Source: Chloroflexota bacterium (GTDB lineage: Bacteria > Chloroflexota > Anaerolineae > Anaerolineales > Anaerolineaceae). Taken from it: a stretch of 64,000 bases of DNA. A model generated the notes under the pieces. That model had not been told where the DNA came from and did not search any database. It saw only the letters and a program-made list of their open reading frames with translations. Position numbers and translations under genes: made by a program. Numbering within the stretch: position 1 is the stretch's first letter; every line of letters begins with the position of its first letter. Positions 52,305 to 60,107 of this stretch are shown one piece after another. The DNA lies in contig JAKPNN010000022.1 of assembly GCA_029548365.1 (NCBI GenBank), positions 1-64,000 on the forward strand. The letters run 5' to 3'.

Positions 52305-53315
52305 GTGGCAAGACTTTCTCATGAATTAGGTATTGATTTAGGCACTTTGAACACCCGTATTGTCGAGGGTAAAGACATCCTCCTCCAGGAGCCCACCATT
52401 GTCGCCATTCTTCTTGATGAACTCAAACTGGTTGAGATTGGAAAATCAGCGCTTAATATGATGGGCAGGGTTCCTGAAAACATTGAGGTCATCCGGCCGA
52501 TGCGCTTTGGTGTCATCGCTGAATACGAGATTACAGAAAATTTTTTACGCGAAATGGTGCGCATGGTGACCGGGCGCATGCTATTATTTCGCCCCAAACT
52601 GATGATCACAGTTCCTTTTGGCATCACCAGTGTGGAGCGGCGCGCCGTCTACGAAGCAGGTCTTGGCGCGGGCAGCCGCGATGTGCACCTGATCCAGCAA
52701 CCTTTGGCTGGCGCCATTGGCATTGATCTACCAATTGGTGCACCCACCGGCAACATGATCATTTGCCTTGGCGGGGGAACTTCACAGGCAGCAGTGCTTG
52801 CCATGCACAGCCTGGTCTCTGCTGAAACTTCCCGTGTAGCCGGCCTTGAATTGGATGAAGCCATCATCAGCTTTGTGCGCCGTAAATTTGGCCTGATCAT
52901 CGGACAGCCCACCGCGGAACAACTCAAAATTCGAATCGGCGCCGCACTTCCGCAAGATAATCCGCAATCAATGCAAATCCAGGGGCAGGACCAGGTTTCA
53001 GGTTTACCCAGACCCGCCACAATCACAACAGATGATATTGTAGAAGCCTTACAAACACCGCTTGAAAACATTGCCGGAACAATTCGCCGGGTGTTAGAGA
53101 AAACTCCCCCTGAACTGATTTCCGATATCATCGATCGTGGTGTGGCTTTGTGCGGTGGTACCGCCCTTTTAGTCGGCATCGATCGATACCTCACTGCATC
53201 CCTGGGCATTCCTGCTTACCTTGTTGATAATCCCACCACCTGTATTGCCGAAGGCGCATCAAAAGCTTTTTCAATGATCGATGTCCTCTCCCGCAGCCTT
53301 CCATCCAAGACTTAA
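52305..53315 (+). CDS. mreB: MreB/Mbl-family actin-like protein
   Basis: Protein of 336 aa. Motifs include GIDLGTLNTRIV (phosphate 1), EPTIVAI, MITVPFGITSVERRAVYEA, MIICLGGGTSQAAVLA (phosphate 2, with GGGTS in place of the usual GGGT-T/S-x-I) and VALCGGTALLVGIDRYL. It starts at GTG with AAGGAAGG upstream. No mreC, mreD or rodA follows. It may be a divergent MreB or a related cytoskeletal protein. Confidence 0.88.
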   Translation: MARLSHELGIDLGTLNTRIVEGKDILLQEPTIVAILLDELKLVEIGKSALNMMGRVPENIEVIRPMRFGVIAEYEITENFLREMVRMVTGRMLLFRPKLMITVPFGITSVERRAVYEAGLGAGSRDVHLIQQPLAGAIGIDLPIGAPTGNMIICLGGGTSQAAVLAMHSLVSAETSRVAGLELDEAIISFVRRKFGLIIGQPTAEQLKIRIGAALPQDNPQSMQIQGQDQVSGLPRPATITTDDIVEALQTPLENIAGTIRRVLEKTPPELISDIIDRGVALCGGTALLVGIDRYLTASLGIPAYLVDNPTTCIAEGASKAFSMIDVLSRSLPSKT

Positions 53316-53333
53316 ACCTTGCCGATCATCAGT

Positions 53334-54164
53334 ATGACCCCAACAAACCTCACGCATCATTCAAATGTTGATCCTCGTCTAGATCAGTTAGGAAATAAAT
53401 TGGAGAGCTACCCGGTTCAAAACCAGGGATTGAAACGCTGGCTGACCATATTCCTGGGTGGGCTGACCGTCCTGGCTTCAATCGGTTTCACTGTTTTACT
53501 AGGCATAAACACCTGGACCAGGATCAATATCCATGGTCGGGCAATTCTTTTGAGCGTCATCCTTTACCCGGCAATTCTGTATGCAGGTATGTTAATTGCC
53601 GGTGCTCTGGCGATAAGCCTGGCGATCTTCTTTTGGCAGGATGGTGTTGATCTTTATGAAAAAGGACTGGTGCTTTACGCTGCGAAGCGCACGCACACCT
53701 GGATTTATGCGGATACCGTCCGGTTTGACAGTCATATCTCGCGAATCTCCTTTGGCGGCTCAACCGTCAGCCTGCGCGTGAAGATCATCCTGGAGGGTGC
53801 CGATCGTCAGCGGTTGGTAATTCGCAACCGGTATAGAAAAATTTCCGAACTGATTGAAAATCTACGCGGTAAAATTTTGCCAGAATTAATTAGAAAATAC
53901 CAAGATCGCTTGTTTATGGGCGAAAGGCTGTATTTTCACAAACACCTGCAGGCGGATCAAAACGGAATATGCATCAAAAAATCTGTATTGCCCTACAATA
54001 AGATTACATTCTCCCTGCAAAACCAGTTTCTCACACTGCGCGAGAAAGCAAATCCAAAAAAAGTGTTATTAAAATTACATTGTCACCGGGTGGCAAATTT
54101 CGATGTACTGATCGACCTTTTAGAAAACCCCCTTGGAGAAGACAGTCATTCTTCTTTTAGCTAA
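53334..54164 (+). CDS. Membrane protein with two helices and a PH-like cytoplasmic domain
   Basis: Protein of 276 aa. Two membrane segments (about residues 38-62 and 73-102) are followed by DGVDLYEKGLVLYAAKRTHTWIYADTVRF, resembling DUF6585-type domains that sit beside membranes. A second similar repeat may follow (QNGICIKKSVLPYNKITFSLQNQ). It begins 18 bases after the mreB-like stop, so they share a transcript. ATG 53334 lacks a ribosome site; TTG 53319 is an alternative. Function unknown. Confidence 0.75.
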   Translation: MTPTNLTHHSNVDPRLDQLGNKLESYPVQNQGLKRWLTIFLGGLTVLASIGFTVLLGINTWTRINIHGRAILLSVILYPAILYAGMLIAGALAISLAIFFWQDGVDLYEKGLVLYAAKRTHTWIYADTVRFDSHISRISFGGSTVSLRVKIILEGADRQRLVIRNRYRKISELIENLRGKILPELIRKYQDRLFMGERLYFHKHLQADQNGICIKKSVLPYNKITFSLQNQFLTLREKANPKKVLLKLHCHRVANFDVLIDLLENPLGEDSHSSFS

Positions 54165-54643: not shown

Positions 54644-55012
54644 ATGCGCGCTGGAAAGATTATCGCCTTTATTACTGCTGGAATATTTATCATCTTTTCC
54701 TTCCTGTTCATCCTGGGCGGGTTCAGCCCCGCGGGACAAACTGCCTGGATTTTGATCGGCCTGGTCGGCATGGTCATCGGTTTTGGCTTGATTTTTATCG
54801 GCACCAAACTCAGTCCCCCGCAAAAAGCCGGTGACCAGGTTGTCAACCTGAATATTGACCTGCCCGGTCAGGTCGGGATGGATACGATCAAATGTCAGTC
54901 CTGCGGCGGCCCAATTACGTCTAAGGATGTAAAAATGATTGCCGGCGCTCCGGTGGTGGAGTGTCCGCATTGTTCGACAACTTACCAGTTAACCGAAGAA
55001 CCCAAATGGTGA
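54644..55012 (+). CDS. Small membrane protein with C-terminal zinc ribbon
   Basis: Protein of 122 aa with two membrane helices (about residues 5-27 and 32-54), a short linker, and a CQSCGG...ECPHCS zinc ribbon at about 87-110. The ribbon is probably cytoplasmic. AAAGGAG lies before the ATG. The next gene begins 3 bases after its stop, making it the first member of the five-gene cluster. I do not recognise a specific function; a role in recruiting or stabilising the larger neighbour is a guess. Confidence 0.8.
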   Translation: MRAGKIIAFITAGIFIIFSFLFILGGFSPAGQTAWILIGLVGMVIGFGLIFIGTKLSPPQKAGDQVVNLNIDLPGQVGMDTIKCQSCGGPITSKDVKMIAGAPVVECPHCSTTYQLTEEPKW

Positions 55013-55015
55013 CCT

Positions 55016-56764
55016 ATGAAAAGAATTATTAAGCTGGCCCTTTTTTTTACCCTGATCTCGCAGTTTGTTTTCCCTGCATCAGTTTCCGCCCAAGACTATC
55101 GATTTGAAGTCACGGTGATGGAAGTGGAAGCTTATGTTGAAGACGATGGTTCTCTTTCGCTGTGGTATTACATCCAATTTCAAAACAGTGCTAATGCTGA
55201 CCCGATCGATTTTGTTGATATCGGTATGCCGTCTTCCTCATATAACCTGGCTTCAATCCAGGCAGAAATTGATGGTAAGACAATCAATAAAATTGAAAGC
55301 TCGCCTTATGTGCCCAATGGGTTTGCCCTTGCGCTTGAAAGCGATTCGATTCCGCCAGGCCAATCCGGCCTGGTTACCGTCTGGGTCCCGGGTGTCAGCA
55401 ACGTGCTCTCTAAATATGATGGCGGTGACCGGGAAGATTACACCAATTTCCAGTTCACTCCCAACTGGTTTGATGCAAATTATGAGCGTAGCACCCAAAC
55501 CCATTACCGGATGACCATCATCCTGCCGCCCGGTGTGGGTGATGACGAAGGCGTCTACTACACCCCGCAGGGCTGGCCTGGAGATTCTTCACCCGATGAT
55601 ACCGGCAGAACTGAGGCCGAGGAACGGGTGTACTATTCATGGTTTACAACCAACGCCAATGTGCACACCCGATATCTCTTTGGCGCCGCTTTCCCCAGCC
55701 GGTTGGTTCCTGAGGATAAATTAATCACCGAACCACCTCAAGATACGACGCCGGGTATTATCAGGGAGCCGCTGGGGTTTCTACCGTCATTTTTCGCACT
55801 CATCAGTAACAACTTATGCTGCTGTGGAATGGGCACATTCTTCATCGGCATGTTCGGCTTTGTGTTTTACCAGGCAACCTTTGGCGCCAACAAACGCAAG
55901 ATGGCTTACCTCCCACCGAAGATGAAAATCGAGGGCAATGGTATCAAACGTGGTCTCACCGCGGTTGAAGCAGCGATCCTAATGGAACAGCCCATGGATA
56001 AAATTTTCACCATGATCCTGTTCGGTGTGCTTAAAAAAGAGGCCGCGACAGTCGTCAAAGAAGATCCCCTCGAGGTTATCACCAGCCAACCCCTTCCGGA
56101 GGGTTTGCATGCCTACGAAACTGACTTTTTAGAGGCGATCGCGCAAAGCGGAGTACAACGCAGAACAGCCATGCAAAATTTGATGGTGACCTTGGTCAAG
56201 AGTGTTTCGGCAAAAATGAAGGGCTTCAGCCATAAAGAGACCGTTGCCTATTACAAAGACATTATGCAAAGGGCATGGAAAATGGTTGAGGAATCCGATA
56301 CACCCGAAGTTAAAAGTGAACGCTACAACCAGACCATGGAATGGACCATGCTCGATGACCAATATCAGGAGCGCACCAGGCGTACTTTTACAACCGGCCC
56401 GGTCTTCGTCCCTGTATGGTGGCCTCGTTACTCGCCTTCCTATCGCCGCAGCATCGGCGGCACAACTTCCAACCCGGTTCCGGCGCAAACAACAGCATCT
56501 GGCGGAGGAAAAGTCTCGTTGCCCAATATCCCGGGTTCAAATTTTGCTGCTAATGTCATTAACGGCGCTACCGCGATGTCCGCCGGGGTGATCGGTAACC
56601 TGTCCTCCTTCACCAATGGCATTACCACTCGCACCAACCCGATACCGGTCAGCAGATCATCCGGATCCGGCGGCTTTCGTGGCGGGGGCGGCGGCGGTAG
56701 TTCCTGTGCTTGTGCCTGTGCCTGTGCTGGCTGTGCCTGTGCTTGTGCGGGCGGTGGACGCTAA
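55016..56764 (+). CDS. Membrane protein with a seven-cysteine Cys-Ala C-terminal tail
   Basis: Protein of 582 aa, overall layout like DUF2207-type proteins. A signal peptide (1-25) leads to a beta-rich external domain (26-245). A membrane segment at about 255-287 contains CCC. A cytoplasmic domain follows (RGLTAVEAAILMEQPMDKIF, about 305-460), then a Ser/Gly/Asn linker and GGFRGGGGGGSS. The tail has cysteines at 564, 566, 568, 570, 573, 575 and 577 alternating with Ala, ending AGGGR. With the radical SAM genes just downstream, the tail is a likely modification substrate. Metal binding is the alternative. Confidence 0.85.
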   Translation: MKRIIKLALFFTLISQFVFPASVSAQDYRFEVTVMEVEAYVEDDGSLSLWYYIQFQNSANADPIDFVDIGMPSSSYNLASIQAEIDGKTINKIESSPYVPNGFALALESDSIPPGQSGLVTVWVPGVSNVLSKYDGGDREDYTNFQFTPNWFDANYERSTQTHYRMTIILPPGVGDDEGVYYTPQGWPGDSSPDDTGRTEAEERVYYSWFTTNANVHTRYLFGAAFPSRLVPEDKLITEPPQDTTPGIIREPLGFLPSFFALISNNLCCCGMGTFFIGMFGFVFYQATFGANKRKMAYLPPKMKIEGNGIKRGLTAVEAAILMEQPMDKIFTMILFGVLKKEAATVVKEDPLEVITSQPLPEGLHAYETDFLEAIAQSGVQRRTAMQNLMVTLVKSVSAKMKGFSHKETVAYYKDIMQRAWKMVEESDTPEVKSERYNQTMEWTMLDDQYQERTRRTFTTGPVFVPVWWPRYSPSYRRSIGGTTSNPVPAQTTASGGGKVSLPNIPGSNFAANVINGATAMSAGVIGNLSSFTNGITTRTNPIPVSRSSGSGGFRGGGGGGSSCACACACAGCACACAGGGR

Positions 56765-56788
56765 GAGTATCAAGCAAAATGAAATTAG

Positions 56789-58162
56789 ATGATGAACGCT
56801 TTAAACAACGCGATTGACAAGTTCAGCCAGTTATTAAAAAAAGGGTTTACCCCCACTCCCGGCCTGCATCATTATCTTCGTGAGGAAGAATATGGCAAAG
56901 TTCGTCTTCACCTCAGAATAGACGCCGATGGAAGCGGTTTGTTAATTGCGAATGCGAACCGGGTTGTCCATCTCAACCCTTCAGCTGCGTTGATAGCATA
57001 CCTTCACCTTGAAGGTCATACGCCTGAACATGCTGCACGCATTTTGCGTCGCCAGTTTAAGGTATCAAGATTAAATGCACTTCAGGACATTTTTGAATTC
57101 ACGTCACAATTGGAAGACCTGGTCAATCCCAATGGCGACTGCCCGATCTGCGAGCTGAACCTGGAAACAACGCCACCGTTCAAAGCGACTCCCAGCGCTC
57201 CCTACCGGATGGATCTGGCGCTCACCTATCGATGTAATAACGACTGCCACCACTGTTACAACGCCCGAGCCCGCAACTACCCCGAATTGACCGTAGAGAC
57301 ATGGCGGAAAATCATAGATCAAATTTGGGATCTGGGAATCCCTCATATTGTGTTCACCGGCGGAGAACCAACTTTATACCAGGGCTTGCCCGAATTGGTA
57401 GCCTATGCCGAAGAGAAGGGCTTGATTACCGGCCTGAATACTAATGGGCGAAAACTGGCGGATCAATCTTACCTGGCAGAACTGGTTGCAGCCGGCCTCG
57501 ACCATGTGCAAATTACCTTCGAATCCCACGATCCCAATATCCACAACCAGATGGTTGTTGCAAAGGATGCCTGGTCTCAAACTGTGGCAGGCATTAAGAA
57601 TGTGCTGTCCACACCCTTATACGTGATGACCAACACCACCCTGTTGACACACAACGCTCCAACCATCGATGCCACCCTGATCTTTCTGGCTCATCTTGGC
57701 GTACCAACCGTGGGTCTGAACGCCCTGATTTATTCAGGAAAAGGTGAAACCGTAGATAGTGGCTTAAAAGAAATTGAGCTGCCGCCGTTACTGGAAAGCG
57801 CTCGCCAAATCACCCAATCCCACGGTCAACGGCTGATCTGGTATACGCCTACACAGTATTGTCATTTCAATCCCCTTCAGCTCGATCTGGGAATCAAAGG
57901 TTGCACGGCCGCCCTGTATAACATGTGTATTGAATCCAACGGTGATGTGATCCCCTGCCAATCCTATTACCAGTCTCTGGGAAATTTCCTGGAAAACACC
58001 TGGCAAGAAATTTGGGAGCACCCCCTGGCTGTGCAACTGCGAAACCGGCAGGATATCCCCGAGGGATGCCAAAACTGCGATTTTTTACCGGAATGTGGCG
58101 GAGGATGCCCGCTTGCTCGCCAGCATCAATCCATTCATCCCATCAAATACCCGCTCTTTTAG
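56789..58162 (+). CDS. Radical SAM/SPASM enzyme with N-terminal PqqD-like domain
   Basis: Protein of 457 aa. Residues 40-115 resemble PqqD/RRE peptide-binding domains (GLLIANANRVVHLNPSAALIAYL, then HAARILRRQFKVSRLNALQDI). The radical SAM cluster motif is Cys149-x3-Cys153-x2-Cys156 (YRCNNDCHHCYN), and FTGGEPT binds SAM. The SPASM region has C372-x12-G-x4-C390 and CX2CX5CX3C at 427, 430, 436 and 440, fitting auxiliary clusters, though a final downstream Cys is absent. Such enzymes modify peptides. It starts 24 bases after the Cys-tail gene. Confidence 0.92.
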   Translation: MMNALNNAIDKFSQLLKKGFTPTPGLHHYLREEEYGKVRLHLRIDADGSGLLIANANRVVHLNPSAALIAYLHLEGHTPEHAARILRRQFKVSRLNALQDIFEFTSQLEDLVNPNGDCPICELNLETTPPFKATPSAPYRMDLALTYRCNNDCHHCYNARARNYPELTVETWRKIIDQIWDLGIPHIVFTGGEPTLYQGLPELVAYAEEKGLITGLNTNGRKLADQSYLAELVAAGLDHVQITFESHDPNIHNQMVVAKDAWSQTVAGIKNVLSTPLYVMTNTTLLTHNAPTIDATLIFLAHLGVPTVGLNALIYSGKGETVDSGLKEIELPPLLESARQITQSHGQRLIWYTPTQYCHFNPLQLDLGIKGCTAALYNMCIESNGDVIPCQSYYQSLGNFLENTWQEIWEHPLAVQLRNRQDIPEGCQNCDFLPECGGGCPLARQHQSIHPIKYPLF

Positions 58163-58180
58163 AATGTAATTGGAGTTCCT

Positions 58181-59338
58181 ATGCCCAATCTGATCGACAC
58201 CTTCAAGGATTTATTTACTAAAAAAAAGCCTCTGCCTGCTGGCATGTACTCATACCAGACGCCGCCCGAGGAGGAACGACAATATCGTCTTCACCTGCGG
58301 GTTGAGCATGACGGCACCGGCCTGCTGATCATCAATGCGGCAACCGTGCTTCATCTGAATCAGACTGCGTTGGAGTACGCCTACCACTTTATCGAGGGTA
58401 TAGATCCCGAAACTGTGGTCAATGTGGTTTCAAAAAGGTATAAGATCGACCGGGAACAAGTGCACCAGGACTATCAATACTTCATCGATCGAATCAATAC
58501 CCTGATTGAAACCCCGGGCCTTGACCCTGTGACCTACCTCGACATTGAACGCCAGGAACCCTATTCGGCAGATATCTCTGCACCTTACCGCCTGGATTGT
58601 GCCCTGACCTACCAGGTTTCAGATGAAAGCTACAAGGAGGCAGCACCTCTCGACCGGATTGATCGCGAATTGACTGCGGATGAATGGGAAATTATCTTCC
58701 AGAAAGCCCTTGAGCAGGGCATACCTCATCTCCTGTTCACCGGGGGAGAACCAACAATGCGTGAAGACTTGCCCGACCTGATCTTGAAGGCTGAGCAGTT
58801 GGGCCTGGTAACCGGGTTGTTGACCGATGGGCTGAAATTAGAGGAGGACGCTTATCGTAGCATGCTGCTGATGAATGGGTTGGATCACTTGATGATTGTT
58901 TTCAACCCGGATAGGCCTGCCGCATGGGAGGTGTTGGAAAAGGTGCTGGCTGATGATATCCACACCACGGTGCACCTCACCCTCAAGGCAGGGGAAGATC
59001 TCCACTCCCACCTGCAACGCATGGCAGCGATGGGCGTTCATGCCCTGTCACTGACCAGTGCATCGCTTGACCTGGCATCAGAGCTTGAAGACCTGCGCAA
59101 CCTCGCCGCCGTGCTTCAACTCGATCTTGTATGGGATATGCCTGTGCCCTATTCTGAAAATAACCCGGTTTCGTTGGAATTGGAACAGTCAGGCGAGTTT
59201 GAAGCGCCTGAAGGCGCTGGTCAAGCATGGCTTTATGTTGAACCCGATGGCGATGTCTTGCCGAGCCAGGGTTTGTATCAACAAGTTCTCGGTAATATTC
59301 TTACGGATCCCTGGGAAAAAATCTGGGAAAACAGGTAA
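58181..59338 (+). CDS. Radical SAM paralogue lacking all cluster cysteines
   Basis: Protein of 385 aa, co-linear with the preceding enzyme. The PqqD-like part is kept (GLLIINAATVLHLNQTALEYAYHF). Where the partner has three cysteines it reads LTYQVSDESYKE, so no iron-sulfur cluster can form. LLFTGGEPTMREDLPDL is retained. The SPASM equivalent (LYVEPDGDVLPSQGLYQ) has lost its cysteines and the protein ends before CX2CX5CX3C. The frame is intact with GGAG before the ATG, so it is a maintained pseudoenzyme, probably a partner or substrate-holding subunit. Confidence 0.88.
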   Translation: MPNLIDTFKDLFTKKKPLPAGMYSYQTPPEEERQYRLHLRVEHDGTGLLIINAATVLHLNQTALEYAYHFIEGIDPETVVNVVSKRYKIDREQVHQDYQYFIDRINTLIETPGLDPVTYLDIERQEPYSADISAPYRLDCALTYQVSDESYKEAAPLDRIDRELTADEWEIIFQKALEQGIPHLLFTGGEPTMREDLPDLILKAEQLGLVTGLLTDGLKLEEDAYRSMLLMNGLDHLMIVFNPDRPAAWEVLEKVLADDIHTTVHLTLKAGEDLHSHLQRMAAMGVHALSLTSASLDLASELEDLRNLAAVLQLDLVWDMPVPYSENNPVSLELEQSGEFEAPEGAGQAWLYVEPDGDVLPSQGLYQQVLGNILTDPWEKIWENR

Positions 59339-59339
59339 A

Positions 59340-60107
59340 GTGCAGGATTTTCGCAATCTCGACCGCCAGGAATGGCATCGTCGATACCTGGAGCAGGCTG
59401 GATGGACAGCACATCTCAGGCAATATATCCTCGAGAAAATCTCACTCCATCCGGATGCCAGTATCCTGGAAGTCGGTTCGGGTACCGGCGCGATGCTGCA
59501 GTCTTTGCATAATGCTGGTTATCACAATGCCATCGGAATTGACCTTGATTATTCCAGTGTAATTTTTTCTAAAAACCAACAGCAGAACTATTCTCAGGTC
59601 ATCGGTGATGGTCACCACTTGCCCTTTGTTTCAGATAAGTTCGCGATGTCCCTGTGCCATTTCCTGTTAATGTGGACTGCTCATCCTGAACAGGTACTAA
59701 ACGAAATGAAGCGGGTAACACGCCCTGGCGGCTGGGTATTGGCTCTGGCTGAACCGGATTACCAGGCGCGTATCGACTTCCCGCCGCCGCTGGATTTGCT
59801 CGGGGCTTTTCAAACCGAATCCCTGCAAGCCCATGGCATTGACACATGCATCGGCAGGAAGCTACGCTCTCTTTTTATCCAAACGGGGCTGATTGAAATT
59901 GAGACCGGCATCCTGGGGGCTGAGTGGCATCATACAGCGCAAGTAGCAATCGATCCAACCGAATGGACCATGCTACGCGCCGACCTTGAAGGTCACCTCA
60001 GCCCAAATGAGCTATCTGATTTTCTACAACAAGATGAACAAGCATGGAAAATGGGGACACGGGTGCTGTTCATTCCGACCTTCTATGCATTTGGGCAGGT
60101 GCCCTGA
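59340..60107 (+). CDS. Class I SAM-dependent methyltransferase
   Basis: Protein of 255 aa. Motif I is ILEVGSGTGAMLQSL; VIGDGHHLPFVSDKFAMSLCHFLLMW and MKRVTRPGGWVLALAEPDY complete the UbiE/Methyltransf_11 pattern. It starts at GTG one base after the stop of the cysteine-less radical SAM gene, so translation is probably coupled. A longer in-frame reading upstream is only overlap with that gene. The substrate is unknown; the gene position suggests a second modification in the same pathway. Confidence 0.9.
   Translation: MQDFRNLDRQEWHRRYLEQAGWTAHLRQYILEKISLHPDASILEVGSGTGAMLQSLHNAGYHNAIGIDLDYSSVIFSKNQQQNYSQVIGDGHHLPFVSDKFAMSLCHFLLMWTAHPEQVLNEMKRVTRPGGWVLALAEPDYQARIDFPPPLDLLGAFQTESLQAHGIDTCIGRKLRSLFIQTGLIEIETGILGAEWHHTAQVAIDPTEWTMLRADLEGHLSPNELSDFLQQDEQAWKMGTRVLFIPTFYAFGQVP

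Follow-up and report, generated by a model that had tools for sequence, protein, structure and literature searches.

Bacteria of many phyla and Asgard archaea carry membrane proteins that end in a near-invariant cysteine-alanine tail, and a radical SAM/SPASM enzyme is almost always encoded in the same genome. The best explanation of the whole is covalent modification of the tail by the active enzyme, with the mark retained on the protein, and we consider this explanation likely. The narrower proposition that the tail is the substrate of the enzyme can be held with good confidence, because the type of tail and the type of enzyme vary together, because the tail is in one case found fused to a kinase, and because tail and enzyme co-occur even where their genes are not adjacent. 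A tail that is close to letter-identical, combined with an enzyme that is hardly ever missing, indicates that the tag probably undergoes chemical modification and is not removed afterwards.

The gene cluster and its surroundings

The window, that is, the whole 64,000-nucleotide stretch of an Anaerolineaceae (Chloroflexota) contig that was analyzed, belongs to a host genome of 1.65 Mb that is 71% complete. It contains five plus-strand genes at positions 54644-55012, 55016-56764, 56789-58162, 58181-59338 and 59340-60107, separated by gaps of 3, 24, 18 and 1 bases. A preliminary description of the window had given these positions and gaps and had assigned the genes, in this order, to a zinc-ribbon membrane protein, a 582-residue membrane protein with seven alternating cysteines at its C terminus, a PqqD-radical SAM-SPASM enzyme, a paralog without cluster cysteines and a methyltransferase. 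The positions and all five assignments are borne out by the data given below for each protein. The absence of a protease and an exporter from the vicinity had also been pointed out, and none was recognized among the genes scanned at 52.3-61.8 kb. No gene for an MNIO (DUF692) enzyme was present among the window genes scanned in the same interval.

Upstream of the cluster are genes for MreB and then a DUF6585 membrane protein (52305-54164). Among the loci read, only those of the nearest relatives (L026 and L113) retain this pair next to the system. A tRNA-Pro gene and a gene for a lectin-like lipoprotein are located downstream. No NCBIfam 2026 model scores above its cut-off for any of the five proteins. 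A defense function was considered for the cluster and rejected; the PADLOC matches (viperin and mads) reflect only generic similarity to radical SAM enzymes and methyltransferases.

The first gene (54644-55012, plus strand) encodes a small membrane protein with two transmembrane (TM) segments and a CxxC...CxxC zinc ribbon. As a conserved partner, it is encoded ahead of the tail gene, directly next to it in 27 of the 31 loci with enough upstream DNA. The C terminus of this protein, YQxxEEPKW, is near-invariant in 61 relatives and may itself be a docking signal.

The tail-bearing membrane protein

The second gene (55016-56764, plus strand) encodes a DUF2207-like membrane protein of 582 residues. 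The predicted layout consists of a signal peptide, an extracytoplasmic β-sandwich (residues 30-227), one TM segment (about residues 267-296), a cytoplasmic helical domain and a disordered end. There is a single TM segment followed by positive charges, and the TM count and the positive-inside rule predict that the tail should lie in the cytoplasm, where the preliminary description had also placed it. The C-terminal module, residues 441-582 (56336-56764, plus strand), was delimited by local alignment to a soluble kinase encoded at locus L044, and probably consists of a recognition segment and a core. The proposed substrate is the tail CACACACAGCACACAGGGR-COOH, which is encoded by the last codons of the gene (56705-56761, plus strand). 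The last residues of the protein, SCACACACAGCACACAGGGR, contain seven cysteines that alternate with alanine except for one glycine.

The window protein has no Pfam match above the gathering score for DUF2207 (PF09972/PF20990), and NCBIfam gives none either. A protein of the second tail class described below, encoded at L057, matches PF09972 with 31.0 bits (cut-off 24.4). A function derived from the fold was rejected for the tail protein, the only match being to a generic β-sandwich (M1 aminopeptidases and ribophorin) with low TM-scores.

Conservation and distribution of the tail

When 249 genomes of the class were searched with the entire 582-residue protein, and without using the tail, 20 full-length homologs including the window protein were found, and all 20 terminate in (CA)CACAGCACACAGGGR-COOH. 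In these homologs, agreement at the third codon positions is 41% over 18 tail codons, all four alanine codons are used, and all six arginine codons are found for the final residue. Selection thus acts on the tail protein and not on a DNA repeat, which is ruled out as the source of the conservation. No other part of the protein is conserved as strongly as the tail. Among 55 aligned tail proteins, a set selected in part by the tail itself, identity to the window protein averages 0.96 for the tail, 0.59 for the cytoplasmic domain, 0.39 and lower for the outer domain, and 0.19 for the TM segment.

A scan of 84,980 species genomes with a DNA pattern for CACAGCACACA yielded at least 119 stretches, of which 80 were read. 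All but one of the 80 end exactly in GGGR at the stop codon. The sole exception is the Bacillota version in Hungatella hathewayi, in which the motif is followed by AGCSQKDFYNSIHVPKEIPKI. The Hungatella tail protein (L220:4039-6563) has 326 residues and is dissimilar in sequence, with the same plan of TM segment, outer domain, TM segment and tail; its gene starts where a distant radical SAM gene ends. Viral contigs served as a noise control. The short pattern matched there in seven stretches, all of them short unrelated frames, and no tails were found.

According to the record titles, the tail is present in Chloroflexota, Planctomycetota, Armatimonadota, Acidobacteriota, Aminicenantes, Zixibacteria, Fermentibacterota (Sabulitectum, Hyd24-12), Coatesbacteria, Edwardsbacteria and Deltaproteobacteria, and in the Heimdall-, Hod-, Loki- and Sigynarchaeota of the Asgard archaea. 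One further record is a metagenome-assembled genome (MAG) placed in Actinomycetota. Most of the records are MAGs, a designation missing from the titles of the Ornatilinea apprima, Bellilinea caldifistulae, Leptolinea sp. HRD-7 and Hungatella hathewayi records. The preliminary description had proposed a search of other Anaerolineae genomes; the system extends beyond that class.

The active enzyme and its co-occurrence with the tail

The third gene (56789-58162, plus strand) encodes the active PqqD(RRE)-radical SAM-SPASM enzyme of 457 residues, as identified by Pfam, by its motifs and by an AlphaFold model. The Pfam matches are Radical_SAM (6e-24) and SPASM (4e-10). The PqqD match (7e-4, 20.3 bits) is under the cut-off of 23.4, yet the N terminus has the expected PqqD/RRE fold in the AlphaFold model, with strands at residues 25-62, helices at residues 64-112 and pLDDT mostly about 90. 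The CX3CX2C motif of the radical SAM 4Fe-4S cluster reads CNNDCHHC and is encoded at 57233-57256 (plus strand). Residues C149, C153, C156, GGE 191-193, C358, C372, C390, C427, C430, C436 and C440 are invariant in 32 aligned enzymes, so that the superfamily motifs CX3CX2C, GGE and SPASM CX2CX5CX3C are all present. The AlphaFold model (pLDDT 88) resembles SkfB, SuiB, anSME, CteB (5why) and PqqE, and EpeE is also matched. The nearest solved structures are the peptide maturases SkfB, SuiB and PqqE, and the Foldseek alignment with SuiB is about full length and covers the RRE.

Among the 249 genomes, the active enzyme (at least 363 bits) is present in 30 of the 30 that have the tail pattern and in 4 of the 219 that lack it (Fisher 1e-34; the genomes are related, so p-values are not independent). 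The four enzyme-only genomes are drafts from families f7, f8 and f22, other members of which carry the tail. In family f7 the enzyme locus and the tail locus are far apart. In genomes G100 and G173 the tail gene is located in one locus and the radical SAM and methyltransferase genes in another, which argues against operon hitchhiking. A gene of the radical SAM family is found in 66 of 80 tail loci, the stretches being cut randomly, and in most of the other 14 the stretch breaks off at the tail gene or close to it. When tail genomes from other lineages were searched whole, the enzyme was found in 8 of 8, seven of which came from the 14 loci without a radical SAM gene. The independent occurrence of tail and enzyme in most relatives, which the preliminary description had named as the finding that would speak against their link, is therefore not observed. 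The expectation that the tail would co-occur with both radical SAM paralogs stands for the active enzyme and fails for the cysteine-less twin, which is branch-specific and absent from many tail systems.

A second tail class and a kinase fusion

Remote homologs of the tail protein end in a different tail, made of CHSAC repeats, which is near-invariant over about 50 residues and has its own radical SAM subclass encoded adjacently. Of the 249 genomes, 29 have the CHSAC pattern, and 28 of these contain the corresponding enzyme subclass at the cut-off used. In the 29th (G118) the enzyme adjoins the tail and was found with a closer query, bringing the count to 29 of 29. The CHSAC-class enzyme occurs without the CHSAC pattern in two of the 249 genomes, and none of them contains both tail classes. 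A small zinc-ribbon membrane protein is encoded nearby in 27 CHSAC loci. The CHSAC tail is carried by DUF2207-domain membrane proteins at L057:4310-6061 and in about 28 further genomes (L055-L064, L196-L215). CHSAC loci also encode a conserved 394-residue protein beside the radical SAM enzyme and the zinc-ribbon protein.

In genome G048 (L044:990-4409), the same C-terminal module and tail terminate a 1139-residue Ser/Thr kinase-AAA protein that has no TM segment. The fusion was seen in this one genome only, a draft with 8% contamination. The module of the kinase comprises the motifs W..LD...ERT...F, LPGxxFA and FxxGVTxxTNPPP, a Gly-rich part and the tail. The kinase gene is followed by radical SAM and methyltransferase genes, and a membrane tail protein is encoded elsewhere in G048. 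The presence of the module on a kinase that lacks TM segments implies, as far as sequence can tell, that the module functions in the cytoplasm and that about 140 C-terminal residues are sufficient as a unit. The fusion also hints at a sensing role.

Degenerate paralogs and the methyltransferase

The fourth gene (58181-59338, plus strand) encodes the cysteine-less twin of the active enzyme, a paralog of 385 residues in which the PqqD-like part and GGEP are kept and the cluster motifs are gone. The twin group of the window also retains a SPASM-like EPDGD...QG...GN stretch. CX3CX2C is found in none of the twins, and the window twin has one cysteine in total. The twins form a single Chloroflexota clade (support 100/100) and arose once in this group. 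A second degenerate paralog, which lacks CX3CX2C and keeps CPGLxICAADC, forms a separate clade (100/100) beside the class B enzymes, a placement for which support is weaker; its hosts are planctomycetes, armatimonads and some Chloroflexota. The twofold recruitment of a dead copy suggests that the degenerate paralogs have a real partner role, though many tail systems are without any. Judged by its clade and gene content, the twin itself is accessory, a branch-specific duplicate.

Several loci depart from the usual arrangement. In one 97%-complete genome (G192, L190:2598-3743) the twin is kept, and the tail protein and the active enzyme were not detected. In L081, L088, L092 and L130 the twin directly follows the tail gene with no class A active enzyme between them; two of these loci, L081 and L092, encode a class B enzyme on the opposite strand. 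Several class B loci within L045-L054 have two different tail proteins in tandem, together with one active and one degenerate radical SAM protein.

The fifth gene (59340-60107, plus strand) encodes a class I SAM methyltransferase of about 255 residues (Methyltransf_11, 3e-17). The GTG codon at 59340 is an uncertain choice of start, because the frame is open further upstream. Against the model for the DVU_1556 methyltransferase (NF045667) it scores 64.7 bits, below the cut-off of 155. A methyltransferase gene is present in most class A and class B loci. The preliminary description had included the twin and the methyltransferase in the candidate system; they are not core parts of it, since the twin is branch-specific and the CHSAC loci showed neither of the two.

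Proposed mechanism and alternatives

In the proposed mechanism, the β-sandwich would be outside, and the helical domain, the recognition segment and the Cys-Ala tail would be in the cytoplasm. The active enzyme would use its PqqD-like (RRE) domain to bind the residues that precede the tail, and would oxidize the CACACACAGCACACA stretch by means of the SAM cluster and two auxiliary clusters. The likeliest products would be sactionine-type thioether cross-links from cysteine to backbone. This bond type is read from the enzyme family and the residue content only, and is put forward tentatively, its chances being slightly short of even. Because no cleavage or export would follow, the sulfur-rich tag would remain on the protein. 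The zinc-ribbon membrane protein might tether the enzyme to the membrane or have a part in metal handling, the cysteine-less twin may well be a docking or dimer partner, and the methyltransferase may add a methyl group.

The strict alternation of residues in the tail would suit a different reaction. An epimerase acting on every second residue would create alternating D and L residues in the tail, and the structural matches include EpeE and the sulfatase maturase anSME, so that epimerization, oxidation of cysteine to an aldehyde or some other non-thioether change of the same substrate has a small but appreciable probability. The best matches, however, include the cross-linking enzymes SkfB and SuiB, CteB (5why) ranks high, and the SPASM cysteines are all invariant in the 32 enzymes, although these points discriminate only weakly. 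The tail might instead be an unmodified strand that binds a metal or cluster (a copper-, zinc- or Fe-S-thiolate site, or a redox sensor), with the radical SAM enzyme acting on another molecule or building a metallocofactor there without changing a residue. CxCxC and the Cys/His-rich CHSAC sequences are natural metal ligands, the zinc-ribbon protein is usually near the tail gene, and the DUF2207 protein SMU.243 matters in the acid and peroxide tolerance of S. mutans, its mutant being sensitive to both (PMC10457818). Nevertheless, metal binding alone would hardly fix every alanine, the GGG and the terminal arginine across phyla, and it leaves unexplained why each tail genome has a dedicated peptide-binding radical SAM enzyme and why the classes of tail and enzyme match; we regard it as distinctly unlikely.

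Adjacency, which is usual for the two genes, would by itself produce co-occurrence, and tail gene and enzyme could then be co-inherited neighbors with no biochemical link. This is highly improbable, because co-occurrence holds in the split loci of G100 and G173 and in all eight genomes of other lineages, because a kinase-borne tail is encoded beside the enzyme, and because the dissimilar body of the Hungatella protein comes with the same tail and a radical SAM gene. Retained covalent modification of the tail thus remains the preferred reading. A broader version of it, to which an even chance is given, is a protein tag common to two domains of life: the fixed Cys-Ala tail, like that of the CHSAC type, could be placed on membrane proteins or a kinase and be turned by the enzyme into a stable sulfur-cross-linked working part, degenerate enzyme copies having been recruited twice as partners.

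Comparison with known systems

Radical SAM/SPASM enzymes are best known for small secreted peptides. A fixed tag on integral membrane proteins that is common to bacteria and Asgard archaea and letter-perfect while the remainder of the protein drifts suggests a protein modification that can be reused and that serves a basic function in the cell, rather than a toxin or a signal peptide. DUF2207-type proteins and degenerate radical SAM paralogs would thereby be assigned a function. No description of this tail system was found in open-access PMC papers or in NCBIfam, and a retained, enzyme-matched cysteine tail on membrane proteins appears not to have been described in either.

The sactipeptide and ranthipeptide maturases (SkfB and CteB, and SuiB, which makes Lys-Trp links) have the same combination of RRE, radical SAM and SPASM domains with auxiliary clusters, and a Cys-rich peptide target encoded beside the enzyme. 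Here, in contrast, the target is the C terminus of a membrane protein of 500-700 residues (or of a kinase), the tail is near-invariant across phyla, and a degenerate twin is recurrent. Sactipeptides and ranthipeptides have a short precursor, a cleavable leader, a protease and an exporter, whereas the window encodes a 582-residue protein and none of these was recognized among the genes scanned at 52.3-61.8 kb. In QhpD/QhpC and anSME/sulfatase, SPASM radical SAM enzymes modify residues that remain in the functional protein. Those marks are at internal sites of known enzymes, unlike a C-terminal tag on a membrane protein. The degenerate paralogs recall TIGR04347, radical SAM-like proteins called pseudo-SAM by NCBIfam, but the score is 39 against a cut-off of 525, the gene company is different, and there are two separate degenerate origins here.

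The TIGR04222 membrane proteins, which have been proposed as substrates of MNIO (DUF692) enzymes (PMC12452194), likewise have a large outer domain, a low-complexity Cys-bearing C terminus and a modifying enzyme encoded adjacently. The enzyme here is a radical SAM protein instead, and the tail is predicted to be cytoplasmic rather than periplasmic. The window protein does not match TIGR04222, and the CHSAC-class protein comes near to it with 38.3 bits (cut-off 43), so that similar membrane proteins may be paired with two unrelated types of enzyme.
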